64,000 bases of DNA, taken from IMG/VR virus record IMGVR_UViG_3300020202_000001, positions 160,419 through 224,418 of that record, one strand, 5' to 3'. Both the position numbers and the translations under genes were made by a program. Positions 10,273 to 49,256 of the stretch are shown here, one piece after another; position 1 is the first letter of the stretch; each line of letters begins with the position of its first letter. The notes below the pieces were generated by a model, which was given only the letters and a program-made list of their open reading frames with translations, was not told the DNA's origin and searched no databases. The DNA is from a virus.

Positions 10273-10282
10273 GGTGAGTCAC

Positions 10283-13200: not shown

Positions 13201-13756
13201 CACGGTGCAGCAGGCGCAGATCATCATCGACATCGTGTTCCAGCTGTACCCGGGGCTCAAGCCGTTCTTCACCGAGGCCCAGCAGCGGTCGAAGGACCCC
13301 CGCTGGATCTGCTCGTGCTTCGGGGCGTTCCGCCGGTTCCCGCAGACCGACGACTTCTCGCTGCAGGGCGAGTTCGAGCGGCAGGCGATGAACTTCGGGA
13401 TTCAGTCGGGCATCGCCTCGGCCATGGACCGGGCGCTGGCCTACATGGAGGACTATCGCAACAACACGATCGGGGACCCGGACTTCTTCAAGTTCGCCCT
13501 CCAGATCCACGACGCCGTCCTGCTGCACGTCCCCTACGCCAACGTCGAGCGGGTCGTCGAGGACGTGCTGCCGTACAACCTGACCAAGCGGGTCGAGATC
13601 TACCCGACCACGCTCGACGGGGTGCCCACCGGCGAGGGTCCGTACCACCTGGGCATCGACACCGAGATCTTCGACCACTGGGGCGAGCCGCTCACGCCGA
13701 ACTTCTGCGAGGAGCACGGCATCCCCCTCAAGTACGCCAAAGGAAAGGCAGCGTGA
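10283..13756 (+). CDS. DNA polymerase, family A, with N-terminal uracil-DNA-glycosylase-like domain
   Basis: This 1157-aa replicative polymerase has three parts. Residues ~135-300 resemble family 4/5 uracil-DNA glycosylases (GKMPGKTEVQEGRNMVGESG, YVTNVLKFQPP, YILCLGADASKALLG, VVHPAAVV). Next is a DEDDy 3'-5' exonuclease (DAE at 351-353, HFGVADLEWM, YGCYDADATLRL). Last is the polymerase: motif A around Asp877 (EADFIGAELYLMA), motif B with Arg943 and Lys947 (KNVIFGVAYG) and motif C with Asp1077 (IHDAVLLHV). Motif C has Ala where Pol I has Glu after the catalytic Asp. ATG 10283 is preferred to an in-frame TTG at 10265 inside the palindrome. The stop overlaps the next start as TGATG. Confidence 0.93.
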   Translation: MQTVKKRRKIITDLDADAKKAEARAAHKEIGGSGLYPLDAPGMPLPGPDFMEHARNLGDLSDFKKVKVEGQGKKKTDTVLDSIGDKLVELHRRALREPGFTMPIQTKPGMRKSVPFVPGHIWGQYMKEYEAGDRIAVDGPRPADVMVLGKMPGKTEVQEGRNMVGESGKLLIDVIREHHIKGSPNWYVTNVLKFQPPDSSGTIKAPWLKDCMPLLHQELRIVRPKYILCLGADASKALLGPKYGVDYMDGRVMELEYPVHMEATDDPDKVLMHKALVMTVVHPAAVVRAPEQRRRLERGMARFAMLQNGIRFDKEEVDIDHRTIRTLEQLQALLHEIDHDPYKKDDWISFDAEWNGEHPQNKGSYVRTMQLAWRPKHAAAIIWSDTTGKFVFCDEDGKPAKKRAIKLLNEWFATKRITMHFGVADLEWMQFIGLTELAKRYRVPLYDKFFGEFEKPQRKKLRKMGFAPGDLVPAWVRTHFEGGHDTGLAGHAIEETAQLGLEVLAMRYTTCPRYDIPLHNWKEAFCKEKGYKAKDLEGYGPCPDEIIVPYGCYDADATLRLMYEQLPLIDNDYEGNCCRESFWESMLTVGPILEMHCTGIPVDRKRIDFLTAAFMKARAEQEEKIRKWARWPEFNIRSVTQVREFLFGEKYNGKKTPTGDIVSVRPRKGVDGAKHTAKSLYLEPILDTSKPPKAWFDIKDKGLEHEHTPGTGKTILGVLAQENQEQSEYVQWIRDYRFLDQVLKSVLRPPVVDKDGEVVRDETAEAASSIDASTGQEASPYSFGRDNLGGVVYDAGLAAVICGDGRVRTHLYPTTETKRWRSARPNLQNMSKRRDPDYTRLLGGTKNEKGKWVGGDYKYKLRSLLHAIPGHVLVEADFIGAELYLMAVMSGDPTMIEHATRNQLPEDDPLYYDIHSNVAVLAFNLKCEPTKKGLESIGKVSLRIAAKNVIFGVAYGRQAKAIALQCKEEGNPITVQQAQIIIDIVFQLYPGLKPFFTEAQQRSKDPRWICSCFGAFRRFPQTDDFSLQGEFERQAMNFGIQSGIASAMDRALAYMEDYRNNTIGDPDFFKFALQIHDAVLLHVPYANVERVVEDVLPYNLTKRVEIYPTTLDGVPTGEGPYHLGIDTEIFDHWGEPLTPNFCEEHGIPLKYAKGKAA

Positions 13757-21506: not shown

Positions 21507-21937
21507 ACTTCAACCTCCACTGGATCGACGTCAGCGAGGCACTCCAAAAGCAGGTGCAGCCCCGGGCCATCCTCGAACGCCCGCAGGTGGGCGGGAAGAA
21601 CCGGGCGGCCAACGCCGGGATCTTCGGGACGGCCCGGGTCGGCCGGCAGGGCGAGTTCTGGGTGCCGAGCAACGCGATCACCGAGCCGGCGATCAAGTGG
21701 GAGGTCACGAACCAGGGCGACCACGTCTCGATCCCGCTCAACGCGTACCGCACCCCGGAGCAGGCCAAGGGCTGGCTGGTGGCGGCGGCGATGGAGCACG
21801 GGCTCCGGGCCGGGTTCGACCTGGGCCGACGATGTCACAAGCAACCGGTCGAGATCACCCTCGTGCTCGGGCACAAGGTCGACGCGGTCGAGGAAGGTTA
21901 TCGCTTCTACCTGGGCCTCTCGGTCCAGGTCGAATGA
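21503..21937 (+). CDS. Hypothetical protein, 144 aa
   Basis: ATG 21503 overlaps the glycosyltransferase stop, so translation is coupled. The protein is beta-rich (FWVPSNAITEPAIKWEV, VEITLVLGHKV, YRFYLGLSVQVE) with no recognisable motif. A small structural or accessory protein would fit, but nothing in the sequence decides. Confidence 0.65.
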   Translation: MNFNLHWIDVSEALQKQVQPRAILERPQVGGKNRAANAGIFGTARVGRQGEFWVPSNAITEPAIKWEVTNQGDHVSIPLNAYRTPEQAKGWLVAAAMEHGLRAGFDLGRRCHKQPVEITLVLGHKVDAVEEGYRFYLGLSVQVE

Positions 21938-21950
21938 AGGAGTTCACGCA

Positions 21951-22538
21951 ATGGCCAAGGCAGCACAGATCGCGCAGTCCCGCAGGGCGGCCCCGGCGGC
22001 CCCCGCAGCGGCCCCGCAGAGGGCCGCCAGGCCCCCGAAGGCACCCGCACCGCCCCCGAGCCCCACGCAGCTGCTCGCGGACGCGTACGACGCCCTGCGG
22101 CTCTGCGAGGACGGCATGGCGGCGTACTCGACGCTGCAGAACATGATGGCCGGCGACAAGCCGGGGGCGCAAACGGGCGTCCCGGCCCCCCGGTTCGCTT
22201 GGGAGGCCGCCCCTCCGGGCGGGACGCCCCGGCAGATCGTGTCCAACCTCGCCAAGCTGCCGCCGGAGGACCGCCCGGCCGTGCTCGGGCCGCTCGTCAA
22301 CCTCCACTTCGACCAGATGCTGGCCGGAGCGGAGAAGGCGAAGGCCATGGTCGACCGGCTGGTGGCGATCCTGACCGCCAGCGCTCAGGCGGCGGCCCCG
22401 GCCGACGAGGAGGCGGGCGACGACCAGCCCGAGGACGACCAGCCCGTCGAGGACGGCGACGACATGGAGGCCGCCGACGAGGACCAGGACGACCAGGACG
22501 ACGACGAAGAGACCGACGACGACCAGCAAGGCGGATGA
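21951..22538 (+). CDS. Hypothetical protein with Ala-rich head and acidic tail, 195 aa
   Basis: The N-terminal ~40 residues are Ala/Pro-rich. A helical middle follows (LLADAYDALRLCEDGMAAYSTLQNM; LVNLHFDQMLAGAEKAKAMV), and the last ~45 residues are almost all Asp/Glu with Gln (DEDQDDQDDDEETDDDQQGG). It resembles other acidic-tailed proteins in this window. Its function is unknown. The stop overlaps the next start. Confidence 0.65.
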   Translation: MAKAAQIAQSRRAAPAAPAAAPQRAARPPKAPAPPPSPTQLLADAYDALRLCEDGMAAYSTLQNMMAGDKPGAQTGVPAPRFAWEAAPPGGTPRQIVSNLAKLPPEDRPAVLGPLVNLHFDQMLAGAEKAKAMVDRLVAILTASAQAAAPADEEAGDDQPEDDQPVEDGDDMEAADEDQDDQDDDEETDDDQQGG

Positions 22539-23191
22539 CCATGAGCTTCGTGCGAAAAGAGGACGTGGAGGCGATCGTCGCGGAGGCCGACCCGCACGAC
22601 GGCTTCCGGGTGAAGGACGTGGTGGTAGGGGGCGAGCACTCCCTCCACCTCGTCTTTCGCCGGGGCGGCGTGCCGGTGGCCCCGCCGTGGCGGATCGGCG
22701 GCGGCATGAGCAAGCAGGTGTGGGCGCGAAAGGACCCCACGCCCGAGCAGATTGGCGAGAAGCGCCGGCTCATCATGCTGCTCGAAGCGGTCTGCCGCTT
22801 CATGAACACCTGCGGCGACTGGAACCAACTGGAGGACGTGCTGAGCGGGTTCAGCACGATGATCGGCGGCGACCTGCAGCTCGCGCTGTGCGGGTCGTTC
22901 CAGCTGATCGACTCGTGCGTGACCACCGAGGGCATGTACGAGCACGTCTTCTACTCGCCCGAGAGCCCGTGGGCGATCCGGTGGGCCGACGAGCAGTTCT
23001 TCGACGTCGTCTCGCTGAACGAGATCAACCGGGAGCTACAAGAACAGGAAGCGAGCGAACCAGATGTCCTCCCCGGAGGAACCGATCAAGGGTTCGGAGA
23101 GGACCTACCCCGTCAACCAGATCATCGACAACTGGAAGCGGTGGAGGGCGACGCTGGCGAAGACGTACCTGGACCAGACCCCGAGGGGTGA
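22535..23191 (+). CDS. Hypothetical protein whose last 128 nt overlap the next gene
   Basis: The start ATG 22535 (ATGA with the previous stop) has an alternative at 22541. The first ~175 residues look like ordinary coding sequence (CRFMNTCGDWNQLEDVL, FQLIDSCVTTEGMYEHVFY). The last ~43 residues are the +1-frame reading of the next gene and are Gly/Asp/Pro-rich. No family is recognised. See the finding on long overlaps: the tail may be real or may mark a frameshift. Confidence 0.6.
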   Translation: MTMSFVRKEDVEAIVAEADPHDGFRVKDVVVGGEHSLHLVFRRGGVPVAPPWRIGGGMSKQVWARKDPTPEQIGEKRRLIMLLEAVCRFMNTCGDWNQLEDVLSGFSTMIGGDLQLALCGSFQLIDSCVTTEGMYEHVFYSPESPWAIRWADEQFFDVVSLNEINRELQEQEASEPDVLPGGTDQGFGEDLPRQPDHRQLEAVEGDAGEDVPGPDPEG

Positions 23192-23981
23192 CACGTTCGA
23201 CATCTTCGTCAACGATCTCTACGAGCTACTGCCCAAGACGATCAACTACGACACCGTGTACGCCTCGGTCGAGGACCTGGCGGGCACCAAGCTGACCTCG
23301 GACGTGCTCCGGCAGGTGTGCTGGCGGCTGGCCGGCAACCTCGGGCGGATGGCCGAGCAGACGCCCGTGCCGACCTGGACCCGCCAGCCGTTCCCGGAGT
23401 GGGTGCCCGCGCAGATCGCGTCCGCCAAGCGGCGGCTGAGCGGCAAGGGCGACCTCGGGTACGTCTACACGATCCAGGTGCTGGCCGGGCTCTCCGCCGG
23501 CCTGAAGACGACGAAGTTCTGGACCGACAAACAGGTCCGCTACATGGCCGGCGACTTCGGGTTCGCACGCCGCCGGCCGAGCGAGCGGTCGACGCAGCTG
23601 CCCCGCAACCAGTTCCAGAGCCCGATGGAGCTGGTCACGTTACGCCTCACGCTCCTGATCGACCCCAAGCTGTGCACGCCGGCCGAGCCCGGGTTCGAGA
23701 AGACGAAGATCTCCTCGGCCAACCTGGACTGGAACCGGGAGCAGATGAAGTACCGCGACCGGTACGACCCGGGCTACCAGTGCCCGCAGGGCGTCACCCA
23801 CCAGGTGCCGTGCTGCCGGTGCCCGTTCGGGATCAGCACCTGCCGGGCGGCCGTGCACCCGACCGACTACGAGTTCGACTACTGCGAGCAATGTGGCCGC
23901 GACCGCGCCCCCTACGACACGTCCGTGTCGAAGGAGATGTGCGTCGAGTGCTACGAGCGAAAGATCCTCCAGAGGAGGTAG
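23064..23981 (+). CDS. Hypothetical cysteine-rich protein, 305 aa
   Basis: ATG 23064 lies 128 nt inside the previous gene. An N-terminal helical part (IIDNWKRWRATLAKTYLDQT) is followed by a C-terminal section dense in Cys (CPQGVTHQVPCCRCPFGIS, YCEQCGRDRAPYD, MCVECYERK), which probably binds two or more zinc ions. It shares the CxxC habit of many small proteins in this phage. I do not recognise a known enzyme. The stop lies inside the strong AGGAGG site of the next gene. Confidence 0.68.
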   Translation: MSSPEEPIKGSERTYPVNQIIDNWKRWRATLAKTYLDQTPRGDTFDIFVNDLYELLPKTINYDTVYASVEDLAGTKLTSDVLRQVCWRLAGNLGRMAEQTPVPTWTRQPFPEWVPAQIASAKRRLSGKGDLGYVYTIQVLAGLSAGLKTTKFWTDKQVRYMAGDFGFARRRPSERSTQLPRNQFQSPMELVTLRLTLLIDPKLCTPAEPGFEKTKISSANLDWNREQMKYRDRYDPGYQCPQGVTHQVPCCRCPFGISTCRAAVHPTDYEFDYCEQCGRDRAPYDTSVSKEMCVECYERKILQRR

Positions 23982-23983
23982 CG

Positions 23984-24388
23984 TTGCCGGAAGACTTGAG
24001 CTGGATGAGCCGGCCGCTGGAAGAGGGCGAGTTCGAGACGGGTTGCCACACCCACCAGGGTAACGACCTGATCCTGTTCGCCCAGACGACGAGAGAGCTG
24101 CACGACCGCCGGTACACGATCTTCGGGACCGTGTACGGCAGGCACCGCACCGAGCCCGACTTCGACTGGGTGGAGGCGCTGCGAGCACCGATCAAGGAGC
24201 TGTTCCGTGAAACGACACGCAAGTACCGCCGCGAGGTCCGGGAAGACCCCGGCGGCGACGTCTACACCTACCCCGACTTCTTCAACTGCTGCATCCGCGA
24301 CTACCTCCGGTGGATCGAGGACTACGGCCACGACGCCGGCCCAGCCCCAGCCGGACACGAGCATCCCCGACTCCGCCACGCCTGCTGA
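23984..24388 (+). CDS. Hypothetical protein, 134 aa, TTG start
   Basis: A strong AGAGGAGGT (23971-23979) with a normal gap points to TTG 23984. The in-frame ATG 24005 would be too far from it. The protein has an N-terminal acidic segment, a beta-rich stretch (DRRYTIFGTVYGRHRTEPDFDW) and a C-terminal helical part (YPDFFNCCIRDYLRWIEDYG). Its last 182 nt overlap the next reading frame. Confidence 0.55.
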   Translation: MPEDLSWMSRPLEEGEFETGCHTHQGNDLILFAQTTRELHDRRYTIFGTVYGRHRTEPDFDWVEALRAPIKELFRETTRKYRREVREDPGGDVYTYPDFFNCCIRDYLRWIEDYGHDAGPAPAGHEHPRLRHAC

Positions 24389-24830
24389 GCGCCGGCGCTA
24401 CCAGGCGTACCTCCGCGAGGCCCACCCGTTCCCCGGCGTGAGCTTCCGCAAGTTCATCGACGGCGAGCGGTCGCAGGAGCCGACGCCGAAGGAGGACCCC
24501 AACGGCCCGCCGGCCCCGCTGCGGGACTGGACGAGCCTTACCGAGGACGTGAAGCTGCCGGGCGACCTGACGCCCGGGTTCATGTCCGCCCGCCCCGAGC
24601 TGATCCGCGTCCGCGAGGGCCGCACGTTCAACGAGGAGGAGACGCAGGCGGTCGTGCACGCGCTGCGGGTCCTGGTCGAGACGAACGTGCTGCTGCAGGG
24701 TCGCAGCCGGGAGATCGCCAAGCGGGTAAAGAACGTCCTCGGGGCCGTCGAGAACGTCCGGGTCACGCTCAGCAACCTCGACGACGAGGCGAACTACCGC
24801 ACGCCGCACCCGAGGACCGACGAGTCATGA
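24207..24830 (+). CDS. Hypothetical protein overlapping the previous gene by 182 nt
   Basis: GTG 24207 has AAGGAG at 24194-24199 with a 7-base gap. That supports a start deep inside the previous gene. The first ~60 residues are Ser/Thr/Ala/Pro-rich and look like out-of-frame sequence, whereas from PAERRRYQAYLREAHPFPG onward the sequence looks like a normal protein. No start codon exists between these parts. Either a long overlap or a +1 frameshift from the upstream gene is required. Its function is unknown. Confidence 0.55.
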   Translation: MKRHASTAARSGKTPAATSTPTPTSSTAASATTSGGSRTTATTPAQPQPDTSIPDSATPAERRRYQAYLREAHPFPGVSFRKFIDGERSQEPTPKEDPNGPPAPLRDWTSLTEDVKLPGDLTPGFMSARPELIRVREGRTFNEEETQAVVHALRVLVETNVLLQGRSREIAKRVKNVLGAVENVRVTLSNLDDEANYRTPHPRTDES

Positions 24831-25009
24831 CCTGTCCGTTCTGCCACCGCGACGTGCCGAAGGAGCAGCTGAAGTCGGGGCGGTGTCCGCACTGCGGCAC
24901 GTCCGTCCCGACCGTGCACCTCCAGCGGCGGTGGCAGCCCGTGCCGATGATCGACCACAGCCAACGACGCGGCCGCGAGGGCCGCCTCAAGCGACGAAGG
25001 GACGACTGA
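24827..25009 (+). CDS. Small zinc-ribbon protein, 60 aa
   Basis: Two knuckles, CPFCHRD and CPHCG, are spaced 13 residues apart and form a classic zinc ribbon. A short basic tail (RRGREGRLKRRRDD) follows. The start overlaps the previous stop (ATGA). It is likely a small DNA-, RNA- or protein-binding accessory factor; the specific role is unknown. Confidence 0.7.
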   Translation: MTCPFCHRDVPKEQLKSGRCPHCGTSVPTVHLQRRWQPVPMIDHSQRRGREGRLKRRRDD

Positions 25010-25010
25010 C

Positions 25011-25202
25011 GTGACGGAGCACCCCCAGCAAGGCCAGGACCGACTGGACGACATCCTGAACCACCTGGCCGAGCTGGGGGTGCCGCACGCGGCCATCCGC
25101 GTCACCCGCGACCCCGCGGGCGACCGCGTCGCCGTCGCCCCGCCCTACGACACGTCCGAGGTGAGGGTGTACCTCGCCTCCGCCTCGCAGCGGCCCAACT
25201 GA
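25011..25202 (+). CDS. Small hypothetical protein, 63 aa
   Basis: The start GTG 25011 lies one base after the previous stop. The protein has a short helix (RLDDILNHLAELG) and a beta hairpin-like end (IRVTRDPAGDRVAVAPP). It is the last gene before palindromic copy 3. No family is recognised. Confidence 0.5.
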   Translation: MTEHPQQGQDRLDDILNHLAELGVPHAAIRVTRDPAGDRVAVAPPYDTSEVRVYLASASQRPN

Positions 25203-25207
25203 GGGCC

Positions 25208-25231
25208 GATCCAAAAACCGGTTTTGAGAAG
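25208..25231. repeat. Dispersed palindromic element, copy 3 (before thyX)
   Basis: The perfect AAAACCGGTTTT core has a GATCC left arm, and the right arm (GAGAAGGAG) doubles as the ribosome binding site of thyX. The centre lies 20 bases before the ATG at 25240. This is the clearest case of the element merging with a translation start. Confidence 0.9.
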
Positions 25232-25239
25232 GAGCGTGC

Positions 25240-26313
25240 ATGAGTTTCGTACTCCCCAAGGTCTTCCGCGTCGGCTACACGAAGGTCGACTTCGAGCAGG
25301 TGTCCGAGTACCTGCGGTACACCAAGCAGGAGCTGTTCGCCGGCGAGCTGCAGGCCGCCAAGGAGGACGGCATCAGCCCGGCCGAGGCCCTGTGCTCGAT
25401 GTTCGGCAAGATGTGCTACAAGAGCCTCGTGCTCGGGCAGAACGCGAACGTGAAGAAGGTGCGGGCCGTCCGCGAGAACCTGGCCGGCACGTTCGCCAGC
25501 GGGCACGGGTCCGTGTTCGAGCACGTCGGGTTCAACTTCATCGTCACCGACTGCAGCCGCGTGTTCACGCACGAGCTGGTGCGGCACCGCGTCGGCACGG
25601 CGTTCAGCCAGACGAGCGGCCGGTACGTCCGCCCGGTCCCGAACGAGCAGGGCGAGCTGGACATCGCGTTCGTCCACGACCCGATCCTCGACCCCGTCCG
25701 CGAGAACATCGAGAACGTCCTCTCCTACCTGGCGATGAACTACCAGGACATGGAGATCAAGCTGGGCATCGCCGACCCGGAGGTCGTGGCCAAGCGGCTC
25801 AAGCAGGTCCGCGAGGACATGGTCGGGGCGCAGGGCTCCCTCCTGGCCGAGCTGCAGGCCGAGGCGGACGAGCTGGCGGCGTACAAGGTGACCGTCGACA
25901 ACTTCGAGCTGAAGAAGAAGCTGACGTCGGCGCTGCGTCGCATCCTGCCGAACGGGCAGGCGAACGAGATCGCGTTCAGCGTGAACATCCGCACGCTCCG
26001 CCACTGCGTCCAGATCCGCACGCAGCGGTTCGCCGAGTGGGAGATCCGGGCGGTCTTCGCCCAGATCTACCAGCTCATCAAGGACAAGTTCCCCATGGTC
26101 TTCCACGGGGCCAAGGAGCGGATCGTCGACGGCCTGCCCGAGGTGTACGGCATGAAGCTCCAGCCGTACGACGTGACGGTCGAGGGCCTGCCCGACGTCG
26201 AGCTGCTGAACGAGGCCGCCTTCCGCAACTTCAAACGGCTTTCCCCCGCGACGGAGAAGCTGCTCAAGGACGGCGCGACCGCCGCCCTCAACGAGCTGCT
26301 GCCCGCCGCATAA
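25240..26313 (+). CDS. thyX: FAD-dependent thymidylate synthase ThyX
   Basis: ThyX methylates dUMP to dTMP using methylene-tetrahydrofolate and FAD/NADPH. The diagnostic motif is present as RHRVGTAFSQTSGRYVRP (Arg115-His116-Arg117 onward), and the second region is seen in NIRTLRHCVQIRTQRFAEWEIR. At 357 aa it is longer than the usual 220-250 aa, with an extended central helical insert (LKQVREDMVGAQGSLLAELQ). It is transcribed behind palindromic copy 3, followed by a GC hairpin, and works with the Tmk at 13756 to supply dTTP. Confidence 0.92.
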   Translation: MSFVLPKVFRVGYTKVDFEQVSEYLRYTKQELFAGELQAAKEDGISPAEALCSMFGKMCYKSLVLGQNANVKKVRAVRENLAGTFASGHGSVFEHVGFNFIVTDCSRVFTHELVRHRVGTAFSQTSGRYVRPVPNEQGELDIAFVHDPILDPVRENIENVLSYLAMNYQDMEIKLGIADPEVVAKRLKQVREDMVGAQGSLLAELQAEADELAAYKVTVDNFELKKKLTSALRRILPNGQANEIAFSVNIRTLRHCVQIRTQRFAEWEIRAVFAQIYQLIKDKFPMVFHGAKERIVDGLPEVYGMKLQPYDVTVEGLPDVELLNEAAFRNFKRLSPATEKLLKDGATAALNELLPAA

Positions 26314-39753: not shown

Positions 39754-41682
39754 ATGAGCGCTGGCATCATGCGCGGGATCGGTCGGGGCAGTGGTGGTCT
39801 CGACAACTTCCCCGACCCCTTCCTCGACGTCGCCTCACTCAGCATGCCGCAGTCGATGCGGAACGCGCTGCAGTGGTGCGAGTACATTTACATGTCCCAC
39901 GGGACGTACCGGATGGCCCTTGAGCGGATCATCTCGTACTTCCTCACGGACATCGAGTTCGTCGACGACGAGGCCAGCGACGACGAGAAGGACAAGTGGG
40001 AAGAGTTCATGCGTGACACGCTCGACGTGTTCACGAACCTGCAGTGCTGCTACCGCAACCGGATGTGCTACGGCAACGGCTTCACGAGCGTGCTCGTGCC
40101 GTTCAAGCGGTTTCTGGTGTGCCCGAAGTGCGGCAGCTCCTACCCGCTCAAGGTCGTCTACAACAACAAGGTCTTCAACTTCGCCTGGCAGGAGATGAAG
40201 TTCACGGCCACCTGCCCCGTGTGCAAGGTGGGCCGCGGGTACCGGGGGCCGTGGAAGGTCGACGACAAGCCGGACGACGAGGAGCGGAAGATCCGCATCA
40301 AGCACTGGAACCCGCACGAGATCGAGATCCTCGAAGACTACTACACGAACGAGACCGCCTACCTCTGGCGCATCCCCGAGGACTACAAGCAACAGGTCCG
40401 CAAGGGCAACCTGTACCACCTGGAGCGGGCGAGCGTCCCGGTCCTCGACGCGATCAAGAAGAACCAGATGTTCCGCTTCAACGCGGACGTCATCCACCAC
40501 ATGAAGGAGCCGACGCTCGCCGGCATCCGCAACCGCGGGTGGGGCATCCCCCGCACGCTGTCGAACTTCAGGCAGATCTACTACGTGCAGGTGCTGCGTC
40601 GCTACAACGAAGCGATCGCCCTCGACTACGTCATCCCCTTCCGCCTCATCACGCCCGCACCCCGGCCCGGGGCCGGCGGCGCTGGCGGCGGTGCCCAGAC
40701 GATGGACCCGATGATGGCGTTCAACATGGGCGACTTCCGCTCGTCGGTGCAGTCGATGCTCCGCAAGCGGCGGCGTGACCCGGCGAGCTGGAACGTGCTG
40801 CCCTTTCCGGTGCAGTACCAGATGCTCGGCGGCGACGCCTCGAACCTCGCCCCGGTCGACCTGATCGCCAACGGCACCGAGCAGCTCCTGAACGACGTCG
40901 GCACGCCCGTCGAGCTGTACAAGGGCACGCTCCAGCTCCAGACCGCCCCGGTCGCCCTCCGCCTGTTCGAGGCGACGTGGCACCCGCTCGTGCACGACGG
41001 GAACAACTGGCTGCGGTGGCTGGCCCGCCAGGTCGGCCAGATCATGAGCTGGGAGGTCGTCAAGCCGACCCTGCAGCGCGTGACGATCGCCGACGACATC
41101 CAGAAGCAGATGATGCGGCTGCAGCTCATGATGGGCCAGCAGGTGTCGGGCACGGACGGCCTCAAGAGCGTCGGCCTCGACTGGAAGCAGCAGCAGAAGC
41201 GGATGTCCGAGGAGGCACGCTTCCAGGCCGAGCAGCAGGCCCGCATGCAGGAGGAGATGGACCAGGCGGGCTTCGCCGCACAGATGGCCAAGGGCAACGT
41301 CAGCCCGGGGCCGGGCGGCGGGCCGCAGCAGAGCGGGCCGGGCGGGGCACCTCCGGGACAAGGCGGCGGGGCTCAGGGGGGAGCCCCTGCCGCCGCCCCG
41401 GGCATGATGCCGGGCGGCGGTCCCGTGGACCAGTGGCTGGCGAACATGGGGCCGAACACGCCCGTGCAGCCGCAGGAGATGGTGGCGGCGGCCGACAGCC
41501 TCGCCCAGCAGCTCCTCGGCCAGCCCGAGGGCGTCAAGGACAGCCAGCTCCGGCTGCTCAAGCAGAAGAACGAGGTCATGCACGCGATCGTGCGGTCGCG
41601 ACTCGACACGATCCGCAACCAGGCCAAGACGCAGGGCGGGGCTCAGGTGCTCGCCCAGGCGGGGGGACAAGCCCCGGCGTAA
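39754..41682 (+). CDS. Portal protein with embedded zinc ribbon
   Basis: This 642-aa protein has the features of a tailed-phage portal: an N-terminal wing (MRNALQWCEYIYMSHGTYRM, CYRNRMCYGNGFTSV), a stem/clip region with long helices (FRQIYYVQVLRRYNEAIALDY) and a C-terminal amphipathic helical crown (QKQMMRLQLMMGQQ, RFQAEQQARMQEEMDQAGF). Unusually, two CxxC knuckles (123-126 CPKC and 154-157 CPVC) form a zinc ribbon inserted in the wing, as also seen in some portal proteins of large phages. It forms the dodecameric DNA gate of the capsid. No terminase is visible upstream in this window. Confidence 0.82.
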   Translation: MSAGIMRGIGRGSGGLDNFPDPFLDVASLSMPQSMRNALQWCEYIYMSHGTYRMALERIISYFLTDIEFVDDEASDDEKDKWEEFMRDTLDVFTNLQCCYRNRMCYGNGFTSVLVPFKRFLVCPKCGSSYPLKVVYNNKVFNFAWQEMKFTATCPVCKVGRGYRGPWKVDDKPDDEERKIRIKHWNPHEIEILEDYYTNETAYLWRIPEDYKQQVRKGNLYHLERASVPVLDAIKKNQMFRFNADVIHHMKEPTLAGIRNRGWGIPRTLSNFRQIYYVQVLRRYNEAIALDYVIPFRLITPAPRPGAGGAGGGAQTMDPMMAFNMGDFRSSVQSMLRKRRRDPASWNVLPFPVQYQMLGGDASNLAPVDLIANGTEQLLNDVGTPVELYKGTLQLQTAPVALRLFEATWHPLVHDGNNWLRWLARQVGQIMSWEVVKPTLQRVTIADDIQKQMMRLQLMMGQQVSGTDGLKSVGLDWKQQQKRMSEEARFQAEQQARMQEEMDQAGFAAQMAKGNVSPGPGGGPQQSGPGGAPPGQGGGAQGGAPAAAPGMMPGGGPVDQWLANMGPNTPVQPQEMVAAADSLAQQLLGQPEGVKDSQLRLLKQKNEVMHAIVRSRLDTIRNQAKTQGGAQVLAQAGGQAPA

Positions 41683-41716: not shown

Positions 41717-41791
41717 TGCCCGCCGATCCAGGGCCAATTCAAGGAAGAGGTCACGCCGCGTCCGCCGCTGGCCGGTGTGCCGTCTGCACCG

Positions 41792-42598
41792 ATGCGAGAC
41801 GACGACTGCCCGAACATCCTGGTGATCGTCCCGACCTACGGGGCGTTCGATTACGCACGCAAGACGCTCCAGTCCATGTTCGAGCACTCGAACAAGGAGC
41901 GGGTGGCCGCCGTGGTCGTCGACGACGGCAGCCCCGACTGGCACGACCAGTGGTACAAGGACGTGGGCGGCGGCTCGATCGGGATCATCAACTACTTGAA
42001 CAACGGCGGGCTGACCAAGGCGTGGAACGTCGGGTTCCACTTCGCCTTCGACCAGTGCGCGGAGGCGGCGGACTTCGTCGTCGCCACGAACAGCGACGTG
42101 ATCTTCACCGCCGGCTGGTGGCGGCCGATGGTCCACGCCCTCGAACACGGGTGGGACCTCGTCGGCCCGCTGTCCAACGCCCCGGGTGCCAGCTCCAAGG
42201 GCGTGCAGGACATCAAGCGGTGGGCGAGGGGCGTGGGCACCACCGACACGCGGACCTCGCTCGCCAACGTCCCCCGCATCGTCCAGAAGGCGTACGGCAA
42301 CAACGTCGCCCCGTGCGACGTCAACGGCTTCTTCATGATGGCGAAGAAGTCGACGTGGCTCGCCCACGCCCACGACGCCCCGCTGCACATGTTCCCGCCC
42401 TCGATCGACGTCATGCCCAGCGGCCGGCGGAACCCCACGCCCCTGATGACGGGGCAGGAGGACTGGCTCAACCACAGGATCAAGAAGGCGGGCGGCCGCA
42501 CCGGGGCGTGCACCGGCTCGTACATCTTCCACTACCGCTCGGTCACCCGCGGCGAGCAACACGCGCAGGGGGACTGGCACAGGATGAAGGCAGGATGA
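41792..42598 (+). CDS. Glycosyltransferase family 2
   Basis: A GT2 enzyme (268 aa). NILVIVPTYGAFDYARKTLQ begins the nucleotide-binding fold. VVVDDGSPDW and ATNSDVIFTAGWW are the acidic motifs for UDP-sugar/metal, and TGQEDWLNHRIKKAGG is the catalytic-base helix. The preferred start is ATG 41792; GTG 41777 is possible, and neither has a good ribosome site. It leads a run of three different glycosyltransferases behind the portal, from which I infer glycosylation of virion or cell-surface material. Confidence 0.82.
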   Translation: MRDDDCPNILVIVPTYGAFDYARKTLQSMFEHSNKERVAAVVVDDGSPDWHDQWYKDVGGGSIGIINYLNNGGLTKAWNVGFHFAFDQCAEAADFVVATNSDVIFTAGWWRPMVHALEHGWDLVGPLSNAPGASSKGVQDIKRWARGVGTTDTRTSLANVPRIVQKAYGNNVAPCDVNGFFMMAKKSTWLAHAHDAPLHMFPPSIDVMPSGRRNPTPLMTGQEDWLNHRIKKAGGRTGACTGSYIFHYRSVTRGEQHAQGDWHRMKAG

Positions 42599-42599
42599 G

Positions 42600-43301
42600 A
42601 TGCTCGTCGTGTACACCGCCATCATCGGCGGCAAAGGACCAGACCGGCTCCGGCCGCTGCCGGTAGCCCGCGACCCGATGGGCCGCCCGGTGAAGTACGT
42701 GTGCTTCACGGACGGCTTCAGCTTCAACTTCACCGACCCGCCCAACCCGCCCGGTGCCCCCGACTGGGAACTCCGCCTCCCGGCGTGGGAGCACGAGGAC
42801 TCGCCCCGCCGCACCGCCCGCTGGCACAAGGTCATGGCCCACCAGGCCCTGGCCGCCGACGCCCCGCACTACAGCCTCTGGCTCGACGGGTCGCACCAGC
42901 TCGACGTCGAGCCGTGGTCGCTCGTCGACCGCTACCTCTCCAGGACGGCGGCGATCGCCACGTTCAAGCACTGCCAACGGGACTGCGTGTACGAGGAGGG
43001 CAAGGCGTGCGTACAGCTCCGCAAGGACGACCCGGCCGTGATCGCCCGGCAGCTCGACCGCTACCGCAAGGAAGGCGTGAAGCCGCACGCCGGGCTGTTC
43101 GAGACCAGCGTGTTCCTCCGCCGCCACCACCAACGGCCCGAGGTCGACCGGTTCAACGAACTGTGGTGGGCCGAGATGACGGCCGACAGCCTGAGGGACC
43201 AGCTCAGCGTGAACTACGCCGCGCGCAAGGTCGGGCTGCCGTACAACCACGTCGCCGGCACCAGGTACAAGAGCCCCTACTTCACCTTCTACCCCCACTG
43301 A
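42600..43301 (+). CDS. DUF616-type glycosyltransferase
   Basis: This 233-aa protein matches the DUF616/TOD1-like family throughout: YVCFTDGF at the start, YSLWLDGSHQLDVEPW (acidic motif), KHCQRDCVYEEGKACVQLRK, GLFETSVFLRRHH, and SLRDQLSVNYAARKVGLPY at the end. The family is presumed to be glycosyltransferases. The start lies one base after the previous stop. Confidence 0.8.
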   Translation: MLVVYTAIIGGKGPDRLRPLPVARDPMGRPVKYVCFTDGFSFNFTDPPNPPGAPDWELRLPAWEHEDSPRRTARWHKVMAHQALAADAPHYSLWLDGSHQLDVEPWSLVDRYLSRTAAIATFKHCQRDCVYEEGKACVQLRKDDPAVIARQLDRYRKEGVKPHAGLFETSVFLRRHHQRPEVDRFNELWWAEMTADSLRDQLSVNYAARKVGLPYNHVAGTRYKSPYFTFYPH

Positions 43302-43311
43302 GGTGAACCAC

Positions 43312-44382
43312 ATGCGTCTGGGCATCTTCGCACCCTACAACCGTGGCGAGGCGACGGCGATGGCCGTCCGCCTGGCCTTCGCGGCCATGCGCGGCGGCTG
43401 GACCGTCCGCTGGCTCGCCCCCTGCAAGACGGACCGCATCCACCCGTACTGGGACGACAACGTCCGCCTCGCCACCCGCGGCCGCGTGCCCGAGTGGTCG
43501 AGGAAGACGGACTGCCGCGTGTGGTTCGGCCTCGACAACAAGATCCTCCGCCTCGCCCAGTCGGCCAACCACCGGGCCAAGGACATCCTCGTGCCGCCCT
43601 GGCACTCGATCGTCGCCGCCGACCACGCGACGATCGCCGCGTTCAACACGATCGTGTGCCCCAACCGCCCGATGATGCGAGCCCTTGAGGCGGCCTTCGG
43701 CAACCAGGGGGCCTTCCGGGTGTGCGAGTGGCCCAGCGGCATCAAGCCCACGCTCCGCCACGGCTTCCTCCGCCACGGCAGCCCCAAGGCGATCCTCGTC
43801 GCCGACTCGCACACCTGCCGGCACCACGGGCTCGACGTGCTGACGGCCGCCGGCCGCCTGCTGGCCGACATGCCCACGCTCCGGCTCGCCCTCGCCCTCG
43901 ACCTCGCCCCCGACCGCCGGGAGCACGCCGCCCTCCGCCGGCTCATGGCCGACAACGAGGACCGCCTCTCCGCCGGCCTGCGGGTCGGAGTCGACACGCT
44001 GATGTCCGAGATCAACCAGGCCGACTGGCTGGTGGACGCGAGCCTGCGGCACGGGAGCGGGCTGCTCGTCAGCCAGGCCCGGGCGATGGGCGTGGCCCCG
44101 GTGGCGTGGCGGGTCAACCCGATGGACGGCGTGATCTGCGACGACCTGTTGCGGGGCCGCGACGGCCTGCTGGTCGACTGCGGGCACACGACGAGCATGT
44201 GCGGGGCCGAGACGGCCGAGTGGGACACGGACGCCCTGGTGGCGGCCTGCGACGACACGCTGTGCGACCCGCACAAGCTGATCCGCAAGCAGACGTACAG
44301 CTTCCGCCGGGCCGAGATGACGCACGACGAGATCTTCCGGTCCTTCTGGCAGGAGGCCCTGGAAGTGCAGACGGTCCGCTGA
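43312..44382 (+). CDS. Glycosyltransferase, GT-B fold (GT4-like)
   Basis: This 356-aa protein has a Rossmann-like N-terminus (RLGIFAPYNRGEATAMAVRL). A C-terminal donor-binding part follows (AILVADSHTCRHHGLDVLTA; DWLVDASLRHGSGLLVSQAR; GMGVAPVAWRVNP). The last segment resembles the E-x7-E donor motif region, though the second acidic residue is not clear. ATG 43312 follows TGAGGTGA. A GTG at 43303 is the alternative. It completes the run of three glycosyltransferases. Confidence 0.7.
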   Translation: MRLGIFAPYNRGEATAMAVRLAFAAMRGGWTVRWLAPCKTDRIHPYWDDNVRLATRGRVPEWSRKTDCRVWFGLDNKILRLAQSANHRAKDILVPPWHSIVAADHATIAAFNTIVCPNRPMMRALEAAFGNQGAFRVCEWPSGIKPTLRHGFLRHGSPKAILVADSHTCRHHGLDVLTAAGRLLADMPTLRLALALDLAPDRREHAALRRLMADNEDRLSAGLRVGVDTLMSEINQADWLVDASLRHGSGLLVSQARAMGVAPVAWRVNPMDGVICDDLLRGRDGLLVDCGHTTSMCGAETAEWDTDALVAACDDTLCDPHKLIRKQTYSFRRAEMTHDEIFRSFWQEALEVQTVR

Positions 44383-44410
44383 CTCGCTATTGTCACCCTT
44401 TTGTGGGATA

Positions 44411-44434
44411 GTTTTCAAAACCGGTTTTTAGAAG
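44411..44434. repeat. Dispersed palindromic element, copy 6 (before the tubulin-family gene)
   Basis: The perfect core AAAACCGGTTTT has an unusual left arm (GTTTT rather than GATCT), and the right arm (TAGAAGAAGGAG) merges with the ribosome site of the gene at 44451. Confidence 0.88.
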
Positions 44435-44450
44435 AAGGAGCTTCGCACCG

Positions 44451-45722
44451 ATGTCCAACGACGCAGAACAACGCATGGCCGCCAGCACCGACGCCGCCGC
44501 CCGCAAGCCCGCCGCCGTGGCCGTCTCGGCCCCGCGGCCCCGCCCCGGGATCGCGAACGTGGCCGCCCAGGTCGCCAACGCAAACCGCTCGACCGCCACC
44601 AAGCCCCAGAAGATCGAGGACGCGTTCGACCACGAGGTCGCGTTCCGCTTCGCCTTCCTCGGTGCCGGGCAGGGCGGCGGCCGGATCGCCAACGCGTTCT
44701 ACGAGCTGGGCTACCGCCGGGTGGGCGTGTTCAACACGACCGACTCCGACTTCAACGGGCTGAACGAGGACATCGTCAAGCTGAACCTGAAGACGGGCGG
44801 GTCGGCCAAGGACACCGAGCTGGCCCGCCGCTCGCTCTCGGGCCGGGAAGAGGAGGTCCGCGACCTCCTGACCAAGGCGTGGGGCCAGGACGTCGACGTC
44901 GCCATGATCTCGGCCAGCCTCGGCGGCGGCACGGGCAGCGGCACGGCCCCCGAGCTGGTGAAGATCGCCCGCCAGTACCTCAAGGACCAGGGCAAGCCCG
45001 CCCGCGTCGGCGCGATCGTCAGCCTGCCCAACCGGGCCGAGGGCTTCCAGGTCTGCCGCAACGCCGTGAACGGGTTCAAGGCCCTGCAGGAGATGGGGGT
45101 CAGCCCGCTGATCGTCATCGACAACGCCCGGGTCGAACAGGTCTACCAGCCGTCGTTCACGAAGGTGTTCGCCACGGCCAACCAGACGGCCAGCACCTAC
45201 CTGCACCTGTTCAACCAGCTCGCCGCCGTCCACTCCGAGTTCATCACGTTCGACAAGAGCGAGTTCGCCCAGCTGCTCGACAGCGGGCTCGTCGTGATGG
45301 GCACGAGCGACATCCAGCAGATCGACAGCCCGGCCGACATCAGCTCGGCCATCCGCGACCAGATCGCCGGCAGCGTGCTCGCCCAGGTCGACCTGACCAC
45401 GGGCAACACGGCCGCCTGCCTGTTCGTCGGGTCGCAGGACGTGCTCGACCGCTTCACCACGGCGTACTTCGACGCCGGGTTCACCCAGCTCAACCGTACG
45501 CTCGCCACGAACAAGCCCGAGGGCACGCGGACCGTCGTGCACCGGGGCGTGTACCTCGGGGCCGACCCGGGGCTGCAGGCGTACGTCATGGTCGGCGGGC
45601 TCGCCCTGCCGTTCGCGTTGCTCGCCGATCTGGCCAAGGAGGGCGGTATCCCCGCCGGCGGGGGCGGCAACAGCCGTCTCGCCTCGTACCTGGGAGTGGA
45701 AGACGCACAGGCCCCGAAGTAG
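44451..45722 (+). CDS. Tubulin/FtsZ-family GTPase
   Basis: This 423-aa protein carries the main GTP-binding motifs of the tubulin/FtsZ superfamily: T1 GAGQGGG (71-77), the signature GGGTGSG (158-164), T5-like SLPNRAEG and a T7-like catalytic loop FDKSEFAQLL with Asp268. GLVVMGTSD follows, as in FtsZ. A 60-residue disordered N-terminus precedes it. The last residues lack the FtsZ C-terminal peptide. Known phage relatives (PhuZ, TubZ) form filaments that position phage DNA or compartments; this one looks nearer to FtsZ. Its function is inferred. It is preceded by palindromic copy 6. Confidence 0.85.
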   Translation: MSNDAEQRMAASTDAAARKPAAVAVSAPRPRPGIANVAAQVANANRSTATKPQKIEDAFDHEVAFRFAFLGAGQGGGRIANAFYELGYRRVGVFNTTDSDFNGLNEDIVKLNLKTGGSAKDTELARRSLSGREEEVRDLLTKAWGQDVDVAMISASLGGGTGSGTAPELVKIARQYLKDQGKPARVGAIVSLPNRAEGFQVCRNAVNGFKALQEMGVSPLIVIDNARVEQVYQPSFTKVFATANQTASTYLHLFNQLAAVHSEFITFDKSEFAQLLDSGLVVMGTSDIQQIDSPADISSAIRDQIAGSVLAQVDLTTGNTAACLFVGSQDVLDRFTTAYFDAGFTQLNRTLATNKPEGTRTVVHRGVYLGADPGLQAYVMVGGLALPFALLADLAKEGGIPAGGGGNSRLASYLGVEDAQAPK

Positions 45723-45784
45723 GGTTTCCCGGTCGCGCCTAACATCCCGGGCCGTCTGACGTGTCATGGTCATGGAGGACCGAG

Positions 45785-46132
45785 ATGCGACTGCTGCTCG
45801 TGGAGGATACGCCGTGCATCGGTAGGGCGTTCCAACGCCTACTCCAGTCTCTCGGCCACGAGGTCGAGTGGGCGCAGACGTTCTCGGCCGGCGTGGCGCT
45901 GTGCAGGGAGTGCGAGTACGACCTCGTGCTCACGGACATCGGGTTGCCGGACGGCGACGGCATGGACCTGATCCCCACCGTGGGGCGGGTCCGTGCCGTC
46001 GTCATTTCCGCCTACTCCGACCCCGAGCGCATCGCGGCGGCCCGAGCCCTCGGCTACCTCGACTACATCGTGAAGCCGTGCGACTTCGACATGCTCAAAG
46101 CGGTCGTCGAGCGGTGTGCCCTCGCCTCTTGA
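45785..46132 (+). CDS. Stand-alone response-regulator receiver domain (CheY-like)
   Basis: This 115-aa protein is a complete receiver domain: acidic residues Glu7/Asp8 (LLLVEDTP), phospho-acceptor Asp51 (DLVLTDIGLPDGDG), Ser75 (VVISAYSD) and Lys97 (YIVKPCDF). There is no output domain. A GGAGGA at 45775 supports ATG 45785. It could sequester or compete for phosphate from a host histidine kinase, or link host signals to the phage. It is unusual in a phage genome. Confidence 0.85.
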   Translation: MRLLLVEDTPCIGRAFQRLLQSLGHEVEWAQTFSAGVALCRECEYDLVLTDIGLPDGDGMDLIPTVGRVRAVVISAYSDPERIAAARALGYLDYIVKPCDFDMLKAVVERCALAS

Positions 46133-46145
46133 CTTCCACCCGTTC

Positions 46146-46165
46146 GGGGGAGAGACTCCTCCCCC
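46146..46165 (+). promoter_or_regulatory. Hairpin covering the ribosome site of gene at 46166
   Basis: GGGGGAG (46146-46152) pairs perfectly with CTCCCCC (46159-46165) and ends at the base before the ATG. The only ribosome-site-like sequence, GGGGGAG, is therefore buried in a stable hairpin. A regulatory switch is possible. Confidence 0.5.
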
Positions 46166-46561
46166 ATGCCACCTCCGAACAAACCCATCCCGACCCTGAT
46201 GCAGCACCTGCGTCGGGCGTACGGCGAGCGTGTGCTGGAGCTTCGCAAGGCCTCCGACGCGTCTCGCTCCCCGGCCCCGGAAGGGACCAAGCACGCCTCG
46301 GCCTACCCGGACACGCCCGAGGGCAAGGCGTACCAGGCCGCGATCAGCCTCGACGGGTTCGTCGGCTTCTGCGAGGACTACCTCAACGAGCACCGCGTCA
46401 CGGCCCCGTGGTACGCCGACGACGGGCTCGGGCTCATCTTCGCCGACAACACCCGGGTCACGATCAACGTGCAGGGCGAGAACGCCAACAGCGGGCAGAT
46501 GCAGCCCAGCGGGGCGGTCGACGTGATGGAAGGCAAGGGGTTCGGCTCCCACCCGATCTGA
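46166..46561 (+). CDS. Hypothetical protein, 131 aa
   Basis: Helical N-terminus (PTLMQHLRRAYGERVLELRK), disordered middle, and a C-terminal beta part (GLIFADNTRVTINVQGENAN). No family is recognised. Its start lies directly after a hairpin that hides the ribosome site. A second ATG at 46199 lacks one as well. Confidence 0.55.
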   Translation: MPPPNKPIPTLMQHLRRAYGERVLELRKASDASRSPAPEGTKHASAYPDTPEGKAYQAAISLDGFVGFCEDYLNEHRVTAPWYADDGLGLIFADNTRVTINVQGENANSGQMQPSGAVDVMEGKGFGSHPI

Positions 46562-46565
46562 CGCC

Positions 46566-46880
46566 ATGGTCGACTCCACCGACACCGACGTGGTCTACTT
46601 CGCCAGCATGTACGGCGGCGGGGACCTCATCCGCGTCGACGCCTGCACGCTGGAGAAGTTCGAGGCGTTCGCTCGCCGCAAGTACGGCACGCCCGAGGAT
46701 CACAAGGACTGGTTCTCGAAGCTGTTCGTCGACGAGCGGCCCATGCAGATGCTGGAGCTGCTCAAGGCCGGCAAGCCGGTCGAGGCGTGGGAGAGCAAGC
46801 AGGGCTGGATCGCCGCCGCACGGTCGAGGATCGAGGCCGTCCGGCAGCTGATCGGCGTGATGGAGCGGCTGAAACTATGA
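46566..46880 (+). CDS. Hypothetical protein, 104 aa
   Basis: A small acidic/helical protein (TLEKFEAFARRKYGTPEDHK; MQMLELLKAGKPVEAWESKQ) with no recognisable motif. It lies 4 nt after the previous stop and overlaps the methyltransferase start by 4 nt, so is probably translated with it. Confidence 0.6.
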   Translation: MVDSTDTDVVYFASMYGGGDLIRVDACTLEKFEAFARRKYGTPEDHKDWFSKLFVDERPMQMLELLKAGKPVEAWESKQGWIAAARSRIEAVRQLIGVMERLKL

Positions 46881-47596
46881 AGAACCACGGATACTTCAAG
46901 ACGCCCGAGCACGGCCTCCAGCTGGAGGAGACGATCACGGCCAACGACGCCGAGGGCGTGCGTCACCTGTTCCGCTACTGGTGGGCGTTCGACGTCGGCC
47001 GGCTGATGAACACGGCCCGCGTCCACGACCTCGGGTGCGGCGGCGGGTACGGCTCCCGCATCCTGCTGGAAATCCCCGAGGTCAAGCGGGTCGTCGGCGT
47101 GGACCTGCAGCCCGCCGCCCTGAACATGGCCCGGGGCGACTACGCCGATCCGCGGCTGGCGTGGGCCGAGTTCCACCTGGAGAACCACTGGGAGGACCAC
47201 AAGGAGACGGCGGAGCCGGCCGACCTGATCGCCGCCTTCGAGGTCTTCGAGATGCTCAAGCACCGGGAGTTCTTCCTGGAGCAGGCGGCGGCCAAGCTCG
47301 CCAACGACGGCGTCCTGCTGCTGTCGGCGAACTTCGTCGGCCGGCAGAAGTGCCACTCGGCCCCGACCGACGCGTACTTCCATTACAACCGCCCGGTCCT
47401 CGAACGGCTGCTGAAGCGGTACTTCGGCGTCGTGAAGTTCGCCCAGGACTCCAAGCCCGAGGACGGCGACGTCCTGTTCAAGCTGAAGCACCACTACGAC
47501 GCGGTCGTCCGCAAGGCGGCCGTGAACACCACGAAGAAGTTCGAGCCCTACCCCGTGGGCGACAACGCGATCTTCTGTGCCCAGCCGCTGCGGTAA
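46877..47596 (+). CDS. SAM-dependent methyltransferase (class I)
   Basis: This 239-aa protein has motif I VHDLGCGGGYGSR at 49-61, motif II VVGVDLQPAALNMA and motif IV-like ADLIAAFEVFEMLKHREFFL. The arrangement is that of small-molecule/sugar methyltransferases (UbiE/COQ5-like fold). The substrate is unknown; it may act on a glycan or lipid. It differs from the methyltransferase at 26384 in sequence. Confidence 0.78.
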   Translation: MKNHGYFKTPEHGLQLEETITANDAEGVRHLFRYWWAFDVGRLMNTARVHDLGCGGGYGSRILLEIPEVKRVVGVDLQPAALNMARGDYADPRLAWAEFHLENHWEDHKETAEPADLIAAFEVFEMLKHREFFLEQAAAKLANDGVLLLSANFVGRQKCHSAPTDAYFHYNRPVLERLLKRYFGVVKFAQDSKPEDGDVLFKLKHHYDAVVRKAAVNTTKKFEPYPVGDNAIFCAQPLR

Positions 47597-47648
47597 GGTC
47601 CGCACGCGGCACGTTCCCCTGACCCGTAAAGAAGAGAAGGAGCCCACC

Positions 47649-48506
47649 ATGGGCGGTAGCAACCACGCCTCCGAGCCCGAGCAGAAGCCCGAGCCCGTCG
47701 AGTCGAAGCAGATGGGCAAGATCCCTCGGCCCGACATCCGCGACGAGCACCTGAAGGCGATCGGCGGCCTGTTCTTCGACAACTTCTGCGCCGAGCACAA
47801 CGTGCCCGACCAGATGCGGCCGAGCGTCGACCCCAAGCCGTTCATGAACTGGCTGCCGACGCAGGTGGCGAAGTACACGTACGAGACCCTGCAGGCGGCG
47901 CTGGAGCCGGTGAAGATCACGCCCGACTCCGCCCGGTTCATGCTGGAGCTGCCGTTCAAGGGCTACGGGCCGAACCACATCATCGCCCTGTGGCCGTTCC
48001 TGACGCTCAAGGACCGCCCCCGCAGGCACCAGGTCCACAGCGTGAACATGATGGTGGCGATCCAGTTCGTCGACGGCACGGTCGTGCCGATCAACATGCT
48101 GGCCCACAAGGACGTCAGCAGCGAGCCGCTCGACGACGCCCACGTCGTGCACCTGGTCATCACCCGCACGCCGGACATCGCCACCCAGATCAGCCTCGCC
48201 GGCCTCGACGTGCTGCACGACAAGCACGCCCCCAAGATGCAGGGCTTCGTCTCGCCGAAGATCGTGGGCCTGGTCAGGCAGCTGATCGCCAAGGCACCCA
48301 CGGCCGCGGGGCACAGCGGCGAGGGCGTCGTGGACGTCGCCGACCCGACCGCGATCCGCCTCACCGACGAGGACCGGCACAAGGCCAACATGCTGATCTC
48401 GTTCGTCGAGCAGCTCTTCCCGGGCGAGATCCCGGACAACGTGAAGGCCAAGATCACCGGCCAGCACCTGAAGCAGGAGACGCCGGGCGGGTTCGACGAG
48501 GGTTGA
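47649..48506 (+). CDS. Hypothetical protein, 285 aa
   Basis: ATG 47649 follows AAGGAG. The protein is mixed alpha/beta with LPFKGYGPNHIIALWPFLTL, VAIQFVDGTVVPINMLAHKD and VHLVITRTPDIATQISLAGL. No family is recognised. It lies in a short-gene region after the methyltransferase and may be virion-related, being upstream of structural-type proteins. Confidence 0.65.
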   Translation: MGGSNHASEPEQKPEPVESKQMGKIPRPDIRDEHLKAIGGLFFDNFCAEHNVPDQMRPSVDPKPFMNWLPTQVAKYTYETLQAALEPVKITPDSARFMLELPFKGYGPNHIIALWPFLTLKDRPRRHQVHSVNMMVAIQFVDGTVVPINMLAHKDVSSEPLDDAHVVHLVITRTPDIATQISLAGLDVLHDKHAPKMQGFVSPKIVGLVRQLIAKAPTAAGHSGEGVVDVADPTAIRLTDEDRHKANMLISFVEQLFPGEIPDNVKAKITGQHLKQETPGGFDEG

Positions 48507-48580
48507 GCCCCCGAAACGAGTTGCACGCCTCCGTGCGATGTGAGGAAGCGGGCCGTCCCGGTCGGGGCGGCTCGTCTTCG

Positions 48581-48609
48581 TTGACGCTAAACGTGCGGGC
48601 GGCGATGAT
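48581..48609 (+). promoter_or_regulatory. Promoter candidate before the DUF3008-like gene
   Basis: TTGACG and GATGAT are separated by 17 bases in the 150-bp gap after the gene ending at 48506. A GC hairpin with a TCTTCGTT tail (48549-48583) just before it looks like a weak terminator for the upstream gene. Confidence 0.5.
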
Positions 48610-48656
48610 GGGTTCTGTCAAGGATGACAACGCCCCCGAAGTCAAAGGAGTGACAG

Positions 48657-49256
48657 ATGCCCGCCAAGAGTAAGAGCCAGCAGCGGTTCTTCGGTATGGT
48701 CCACGCCGCGCAGAAGGGCGGGAAGGGGACCAAGAACCCCGCCGTCGCCTCCGCCGCCAAGAAGATGAGCCCCGACAGCGTCGGGCACTTCGCCAAGACG
48801 AAGCACAAGGGCCTGCCGGACAAGAAGGCCGCCGCCAAGTTCGCCGCCGACGCCGCCACCGTGCTCGCCGTCGAGGAGCCCGCGTTCTCGAAGGTGGCCG
48901 CGGACGTGCTCCGCTCCCACGACCTCCACTGGGCGATCTTCAACGCCTTCCCCACCCGGACCAAGCAGGCCCGGGAGCGGATCTTCTCCGTCATCGTCAA
49001 GGCCGCCTCCGCCCTCCAGAAGCGGGCGAACGGCATGGGCATGGGCGGGGCCGCCCCGATGCCGGCCGGTGCCGACGCCGGCGGGGCGGGCGGGGACATG
49101 ATGGGCATGGGGGCCGCCCTCGGCGGCATGGGCGCTGCCCCGGGCGGGATGGCCAGCGCCGGCAGCGGCATGGGCTCGCCGCCCGCCCAGAACGTCCCGA
49201 CCACGAGCCCGATGAGCTTCAACGGCAGCCCCACCCAGGGCTTCGCAGGCTTCTAA
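48657..49256 (+). CDS. DUF3008-like protein with Gly/Met-rich tail, 199 aa
   Basis: The N-terminal PAKSKSQQRFFGMVHAAQKG is the recognisable start of a phage family (DUF3008-like). A basic helical section continues (SVGHFAKTKHKGLPDKKAAA), then RSHDLHWAIFNAFPTRTKQAR. The last ~70 residues are Gly/Met/Ala low complexity ending in Pro-Thr-Ser-rich sequence. The ribosome site AAGGAG is clear. A structural or DNA-associated role is likely, but the mechanism is unknown. Confidence 0.7.
   Translation: MPAKSKSQQRFFGMVHAAQKGGKGTKNPAVASAAKKMSPDSVGHFAKTKHKGLPDKKAAAKFAADAATVLAVEEPAFSKVAADVLRSHDLHWAIFNAFPTRTKQARERIFSVIVKAASALQKRANGMGMGGAAPMPAGADAGGAGGDMMGMGAALGGMGAAPGGMASAGSGMGSPPAQNVPTTSPMSFNGSPTQGFAGF

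Follow-up and report, generated by a model that had tools for sequence, protein, structure and literature searches.

The locus considered here raises the question of what a virus does with a tubulin-type GTPase encoded close to candidate head genes, and to which branch of the superfamily that GTPase belongs. The window, a stretch of 64,000 nucleotides, comprises bases 160419-224418 of a 224,418-base virus record. It contains an ATG-started gene at 44451..45722 (+ strand), whose 423-residue product is described as a TubZ-like GTPase of the tubulin/FtsZ superfamily on the basis of Pfam, alignments, and a structural model. The ORF has the codon pattern of its neighbours, with a strong GC3 pattern (0.97), and a purine-rich, Shine-Dalgarno-like GAAGAAGGAG lies upstream at 44431..44440 (+). 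The protein matches PF00091 with an E-value of 1.9e-14 (54.8 bits against a curated cut-off of 33), as do all 20 scanned family sequences at E≤0.01. It also matches PF13809 above the curated cut-off (E 8.1e-11), with a score below that of PF00091. These matches bear out the view, first taken in a sequence-only reading of this DNA, that the gene encodes a phage tubulin-superfamily GTPase. Membership of the FtsZ-like 1 (Tubulin_2) group was rejected, as PF13809 is not the best match and neither of the operon partners of that group, vWA and OmpA, was recognised among the neighbours examined.

The protein begins with about 57 Ala/Pro-rich residues that are predicted to be disordered, followed by a GTPase domain (about 62-250), H7 and T7 (about 240-275), and a C-terminal domain extending to about residue 415. 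Alignments place the T1 nucleotide loop GAGQGGG at residues 71-77 (44661..44681, +), the T4 tubulin signature GGGTGSG at 158-164 (44922..44942, +), and the T7 loop ITFDKSEF at 265-272 (45243..45266, +). The first two motifs and a T7-like loop with Asp268 had been named in the sequence-only reading; all are present as it stated and their key residues are conserved among relatives. Asp268 is invariant in the family, and the T7 loop is of the TubZ type, FDxSEF, not the NxDxAD of FtsZ. The C-terminus reads LGVEDAQAPK and, on inspection, lacks the FtsZ tail peptide for FtsA/ZipA, as the same reading had stated. Purifying selection on the gene is very strong: pN is 0.002-0.13 with pS mostly near saturation, and dN/dS is 0.01-0.03 where computable. 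The catalytic loops are intact. A receiver-like (response regulator) ORF lies directly behind the gene (window 45761-46132).

The family is most readily compared with TubZ/RepX of Bacillales plasmids (4ei7, 2xka; PF21493, PF22453), its closest match in both profile and fold along the full length, with 23–26% identity in profile alignments. The best PDB match of the single window sequence is TubZ/RepX of Bacillus cereus (4ei7, E 6e-12), which also leads the search with a family profile (E 9e-21), ahead of CetZ (9e-17) and FtsZ (7e-12). In hhalign the family scores 265-332 against TubZ sets, 176 against phage G, 164-171 against FtsZ, and 41 against PhuZ. The TubZ references came from plasmids of other Bacillales; both plasmids and phages from listed toxin producers were left out. 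The C-terminal part alone matches TubZ at E 1e-9 to 4e-8 and FtsZ at about 1e-3, and gives no match to PhuZ. The TubZ-like_C domain PF22453 was found in 7 of 20 scanned family sequences at E≤0.01 (best 2.9e-10), whereas the window protein itself matches neither PF22453 nor PF21493. Viral and plasmid proteins share a T6 motif of (I/V)DNxK/R, LHxxN in H7, and FDxSEF in T7, and their C-terminal domains appear related; T6 in most FtsZ proteins is IPN. The AlphaFold model is confident for the GTPase domain only, its C-terminal half being of low confidence, and TM-scores were therefore left unused; an earlier run with 8 close rows gave a pLDDT of 46 and was discarded. Foldseek with this model again ranks the same TubZ first (E 7e-14), with FtsZ and CetZ at about 1e-11.

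In the tree, the viral family forms its own clade (support 96/96) and groups with TubZ and phage G, apart from FtsZ and PhuZ (91/94). The AU test rejects neither an affinity to FtsZ (p 0.286) nor one to PhuZ (p 0.136), so the tree counts as support only and not as proof. Profiles, motifs, C-terminal domain, Foldseek, and tree together favour TubZ as the nearest kin. The earlier suggestion that the protein is closer to FtsZ than to PhuZ or TubZ is hence not supported by profile scores, motifs, PF22453, and phylogeny taken together. Likeness to FtsZ extends to the GTPase domain and the T1 and T4 loops, but the T5, T6, H7, and T7 motifs differ, the profile score is roughly half that of TubZ, and FtsZ_C (PF12327) was not matched in the 20 family sequences scanned, with the E. 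coli control positive. PhuZ of phiKZ-like nucleus-forming phages is likewise a phage-encoded tubulin-superfamily GTPase of jumbo phages with a multisubunit RNA polymerase. However, its hhalign match is weak (E 1.5e-4), its C-terminal part is dissimilar, and its T1, T5, and T6 motifs differ. Membership of the PhuZ group was ruled out on this weak match and on the absence of PF22334, the phage tubulin C-terminal domain, from the 20 scanned sequences, PhuZ controls being positive.

Relatives are common among viral records. Successive IMG/VR searches returned 11, then 22, then at least 211 matching stretches; the 80 relatives kept show 36–60% identity, and another query brought up one further clade. 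Searches of plasmids and deposited phages with the window protein gave no match, and none was found in cellular genomes with the jumbo-clade alignment as query. The only relative found among deposited phages is gp138 of Bacillus phage G, annotated as a 'putative FtsZ-like cell division protein', which is distant (22% identity). It groups with TubZ in the tree as the viral family does, but on a separate branch and with a weakly related C-terminal part. The neighbours of gp138 that were seen are mostly nucleotide-metabolism genes and ORFs of no assigned function, with no head genes. The best viral structural match is A0A6J5RW92 from an uncultured Caudovirales phage in BFVD (E 1.6e-16, 26% identity), whose annotation as 'FtsZ Cell division GTPase' rests on similarity only and which likely belongs to the same viral family.

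The main functional clue comes from the gene neighbourhoods. In the jumbo clade a portal-like gene encoding 642 residues (39754..41682, + in the window) lies 2-4 kb upstream of the tubulin gene, and in its orientation, in every one of the 16 non-redundant relatives, and most loci keep three conserved ORFs between the two. In the window these are an ORF that matches a glycosyltransferase family (41777..42598, +), a second that is glycosyltransferase-like by eye (42600..43301, +), and, immediately before the tubulin gene, a third of 359 residues that by eye also resembles a glycosyltransferase (43303..44382, +). A small downstream ORF (46166..46561, +) is conserved in 12 non-redundant loci. The portal identity of the 642-residue protein is weak: PHROG 21 was matched in one of four sequences (E 0.07), hhalign against the marine portal family gave E 0.023 with a probability of 2%, and a PDB profile search returned nothing useful. 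The marine group has the order ERCC4 nuclease, terminase (TerL), portal (PHROG 16240), tubulin, lipoprotein-like ORF, ClpP-type head maturation protease, scaffold-like, and capsid-like, the last two labels being assigned by eye. Its portal gene is upstream of the tubulin gene in 22 non-redundant loci, abutting or overlapping it in 17. The third clade has a ClpP-type head protease near the tubulin gene in five loci; in one, L217, the distance is 222 bp (phrog_94, E 1.8e-42). The recurrence of head genes beside the tubulin gene in such distant phages hints that the gene may help to move or assemble heads.

The best explanation, held tentatively and at somewhat less than even odds, is a TubZ-like filament expressed late in infection, which would transport or position proheads or the packaging site, a step suggested by gene order only. 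The GTPase would probably be expressed late and bind GTP through the T1-T6 loops. The T7 acids of one subunit, Asp268 and Glu271, would complete the active site of the next, and polar, GTP-driven filaments would form as a result, as expected from the superfamily. While virions are being assembled, such filaments may then transport or position proheads, or they may tether the packaging site. PhuZ is known to traffic capsids (PMC8314001, PMC7950403); the viral family would do the same job from another branch of the superfamily, and apparently in phages that form no nucleus. Superfamily membership, affinity to TubZ, intact loops, purifying selection, and the head neighbourhood in three clades are the data behind this proposal. 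Counting against a prohead role are that gene order is an association only, that the jumbo portal label is weak, and that the gene appears dispensable.

Dispensability is suggested by the pattern of retention and loss. Among 79 of 80 jumbo-portal loci examined, the tubulin gene lies 2.4-4.1 kb downstream in 20 and is absent from 33, the remaining 26 being too short. The 33 loci without a tubulin near the portal belong to a sister clade, whose phages have genomes of about 200 kb and share the portal family. Fifteen portal-bearing records in which none had been seen near the portal were searched whole and gave no tubulin match anywhere, in a search run without a dedicated positive control. The presence of tubulin needs three changes on the portal tree, with at least two losses inside the tubulin clade. 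As the gene is absent near the portal in the sister clade and has been lost within its own, it is, as far as these genomes indicate, useful but dispensable for this type of virion. PhuZ is likewise said to be dispensable (PMC13282480).

The host is probably a planctomycete. The phage encodes a tandem-duplicated CsrA-like protein (L034:11238-11729, -) most similar to CsrA of Phycisphaerales, and 75 of its 80 best genome matches are labelled Planctomycetota or subgroups, mostly Phycisphaerales. The host is only probable because the assignment rests on this one gene. Planctomycetota are reported to lack FtsZ (PMC4432640), and PF00091 was absent from 20 of 20 and from 288 of 294 genomes sampled. 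The six exceptions comprise three divergent FtsZ-like proteins and three members of the phage tubulin family. The former are found in L126, L127, and L129, with an FtsA-like frame adjoining by eye in L126 and L129. The latter are chromosomal (L132:9237-10559, L133:9409-10728, L134:9140-10483) in genomes with no canonical FtsZ match. Their conserved neighbours are signal peptidase-like, HAD hydrolase-like, and ilvC-like, and a second, shorter copy lies elsewhere. A recent capture of host FtsZ with loss of polymerisation residues, the origin that would have undone the first interpretation, was ruled out by profile scores, motifs, and the FtsZ-less state of most of the probable host phylum, and the polymerisation residues are intact.

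The strongest alternative, though an unlikely one, is a PhuZ-like organiser in which TubZ-like filaments centre or push phage DNA or a replication factory and handle capsids only secondarily or not at all. The large genome is in keeping with this, as is the multisubunit-type RNA polymerase (PF00562) found in 8 of 8 jumbo records tested and fused as beta-beta' in the record analysed here; a published comparison correlates phage tubulins with such polymerases in jumbo phages (PMC7824862). However, PhuZ is the most distant reference group, and a phiKZ gp54 query found no chimallin in the 8 jumbo records, with the phiKZ control positive, a search that distant homologs could escape. Four marine family records gave no multisubunit RNA polymerase match, yet the gene still sits in the head module of marine members. 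Type III, TubZRC-like partition of a plasmid-like or pseudolysogenic phage genome is less probable still. TubZ is the nearest family and a phage TubZ is known from a plasmid-prophage (PMC7950403), but the genes of the viral family sit with virion-head genes, a location unexpected for a partition gene. Reference plasmid tubZ genes have an ORF of 100-120 residues just upstream, in the TubR position, where the window has one of 359. Only chance-like repeats occur in 42500-48700, with no iteron array, and none of the 12 related phage records contains Phage_integrase, while one has ParB_N. Membership of TubZRC was therefore rejected for want of an adjoining TubR gene, centromere iterons, or an integrase. 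Replication organisation and plasmid-prophage segregation were both options of the sequence-only reading; the neighbourhood points to the head module.

A local GTPase of head morphogenesis that forms no filaments, such as a factor for portal or prohead assembly that has kept the tubulin fold, is similarly improbable. The marine gene abuts or overlaps the portal gene as an accessory head gene might, but the T7 catalytic acid and the polymerisation loops are conserved, which a monomeric factor would not need. Interference with host division by FtsZ mimicry, also raised in the sequence-only reading, has only a superfamily relation in its favour and is the least likely alternative, a very improbable one, as the probable host phylum mostly lacks FtsZ, the nearest kin is TubZ, and both FtsZ_C and the tail peptide are missing.

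To our knowledge only two types of phage tubulin have been characterised: that of nucleus-forming phages, PhuZ, and the TubZ of a plasmid-prophage. A wider reading of the prohead-carrying filament, considered rather unlikely, would make it a third viral tubulin cytoskeleton that is widespread, encoded in the head module, moves proheads without a phage nucleus, occurs partly in FtsZ-less hosts, and has passed between phages and Planctomycetota. The last element is suggested by the related copies in a few FtsZ-less Planctomycetota chromosomes. If a common family is indeed tied to head genes in distantly related phages, tubulin-driven capsid handling would be a general viral strategy and not one confined to phages that form a nucleus. 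That the family occurs in viruses whose hosts are probably FtsZ-less, and also in some FtsZ-less planctomycete chromosomes, is relevant to the travel of cytomotive GTPases and to the uses that such bacteria could have for them.

The gene also stands behind a palindrome, as originally described: AAAACCGGTTTT lies at 44417..44428 (strandless), 22 nt before the ATG. The window has seven exact copies, and 11 matches when up to two mismatches are allowed (0.34 expected). The core AAACCGGTTT occurs 25 times in the record, 23 of them intergenic and mostly 14-150 nt before + strand genes. The palindrome has a longer form, ATCTCAAAACCGGTTTTGAGAT, and a relative (L135) has the variant ATCTAAAAAGCACTTTTTGGAT right before its own tubulin ATG. 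The palindrome may serve the phage polymerase as a promoter or operator. The fused beta-beta' polymerase has 1501 residues with Rpb2 and Rpb1 domains (L035:1647-6152, record bases about 21647-26152) and is probably fused in several other jumbo records too. In the jumbo relative G421 the polymerase matches are spread over separate long frames of 2343 and 1407 aa, as though insertions had broken up the gene. Further genes include an adenylosuccinate synthetase-like protein of the PurA/PurZ type with the motif FGDAGKG (L039:13560-15056), a possible link to modified DNA bases, and a 1163-aa protein that joins a uracil-DNA glycosylase domain to a family A DNA polymerase (window 10265-13756).
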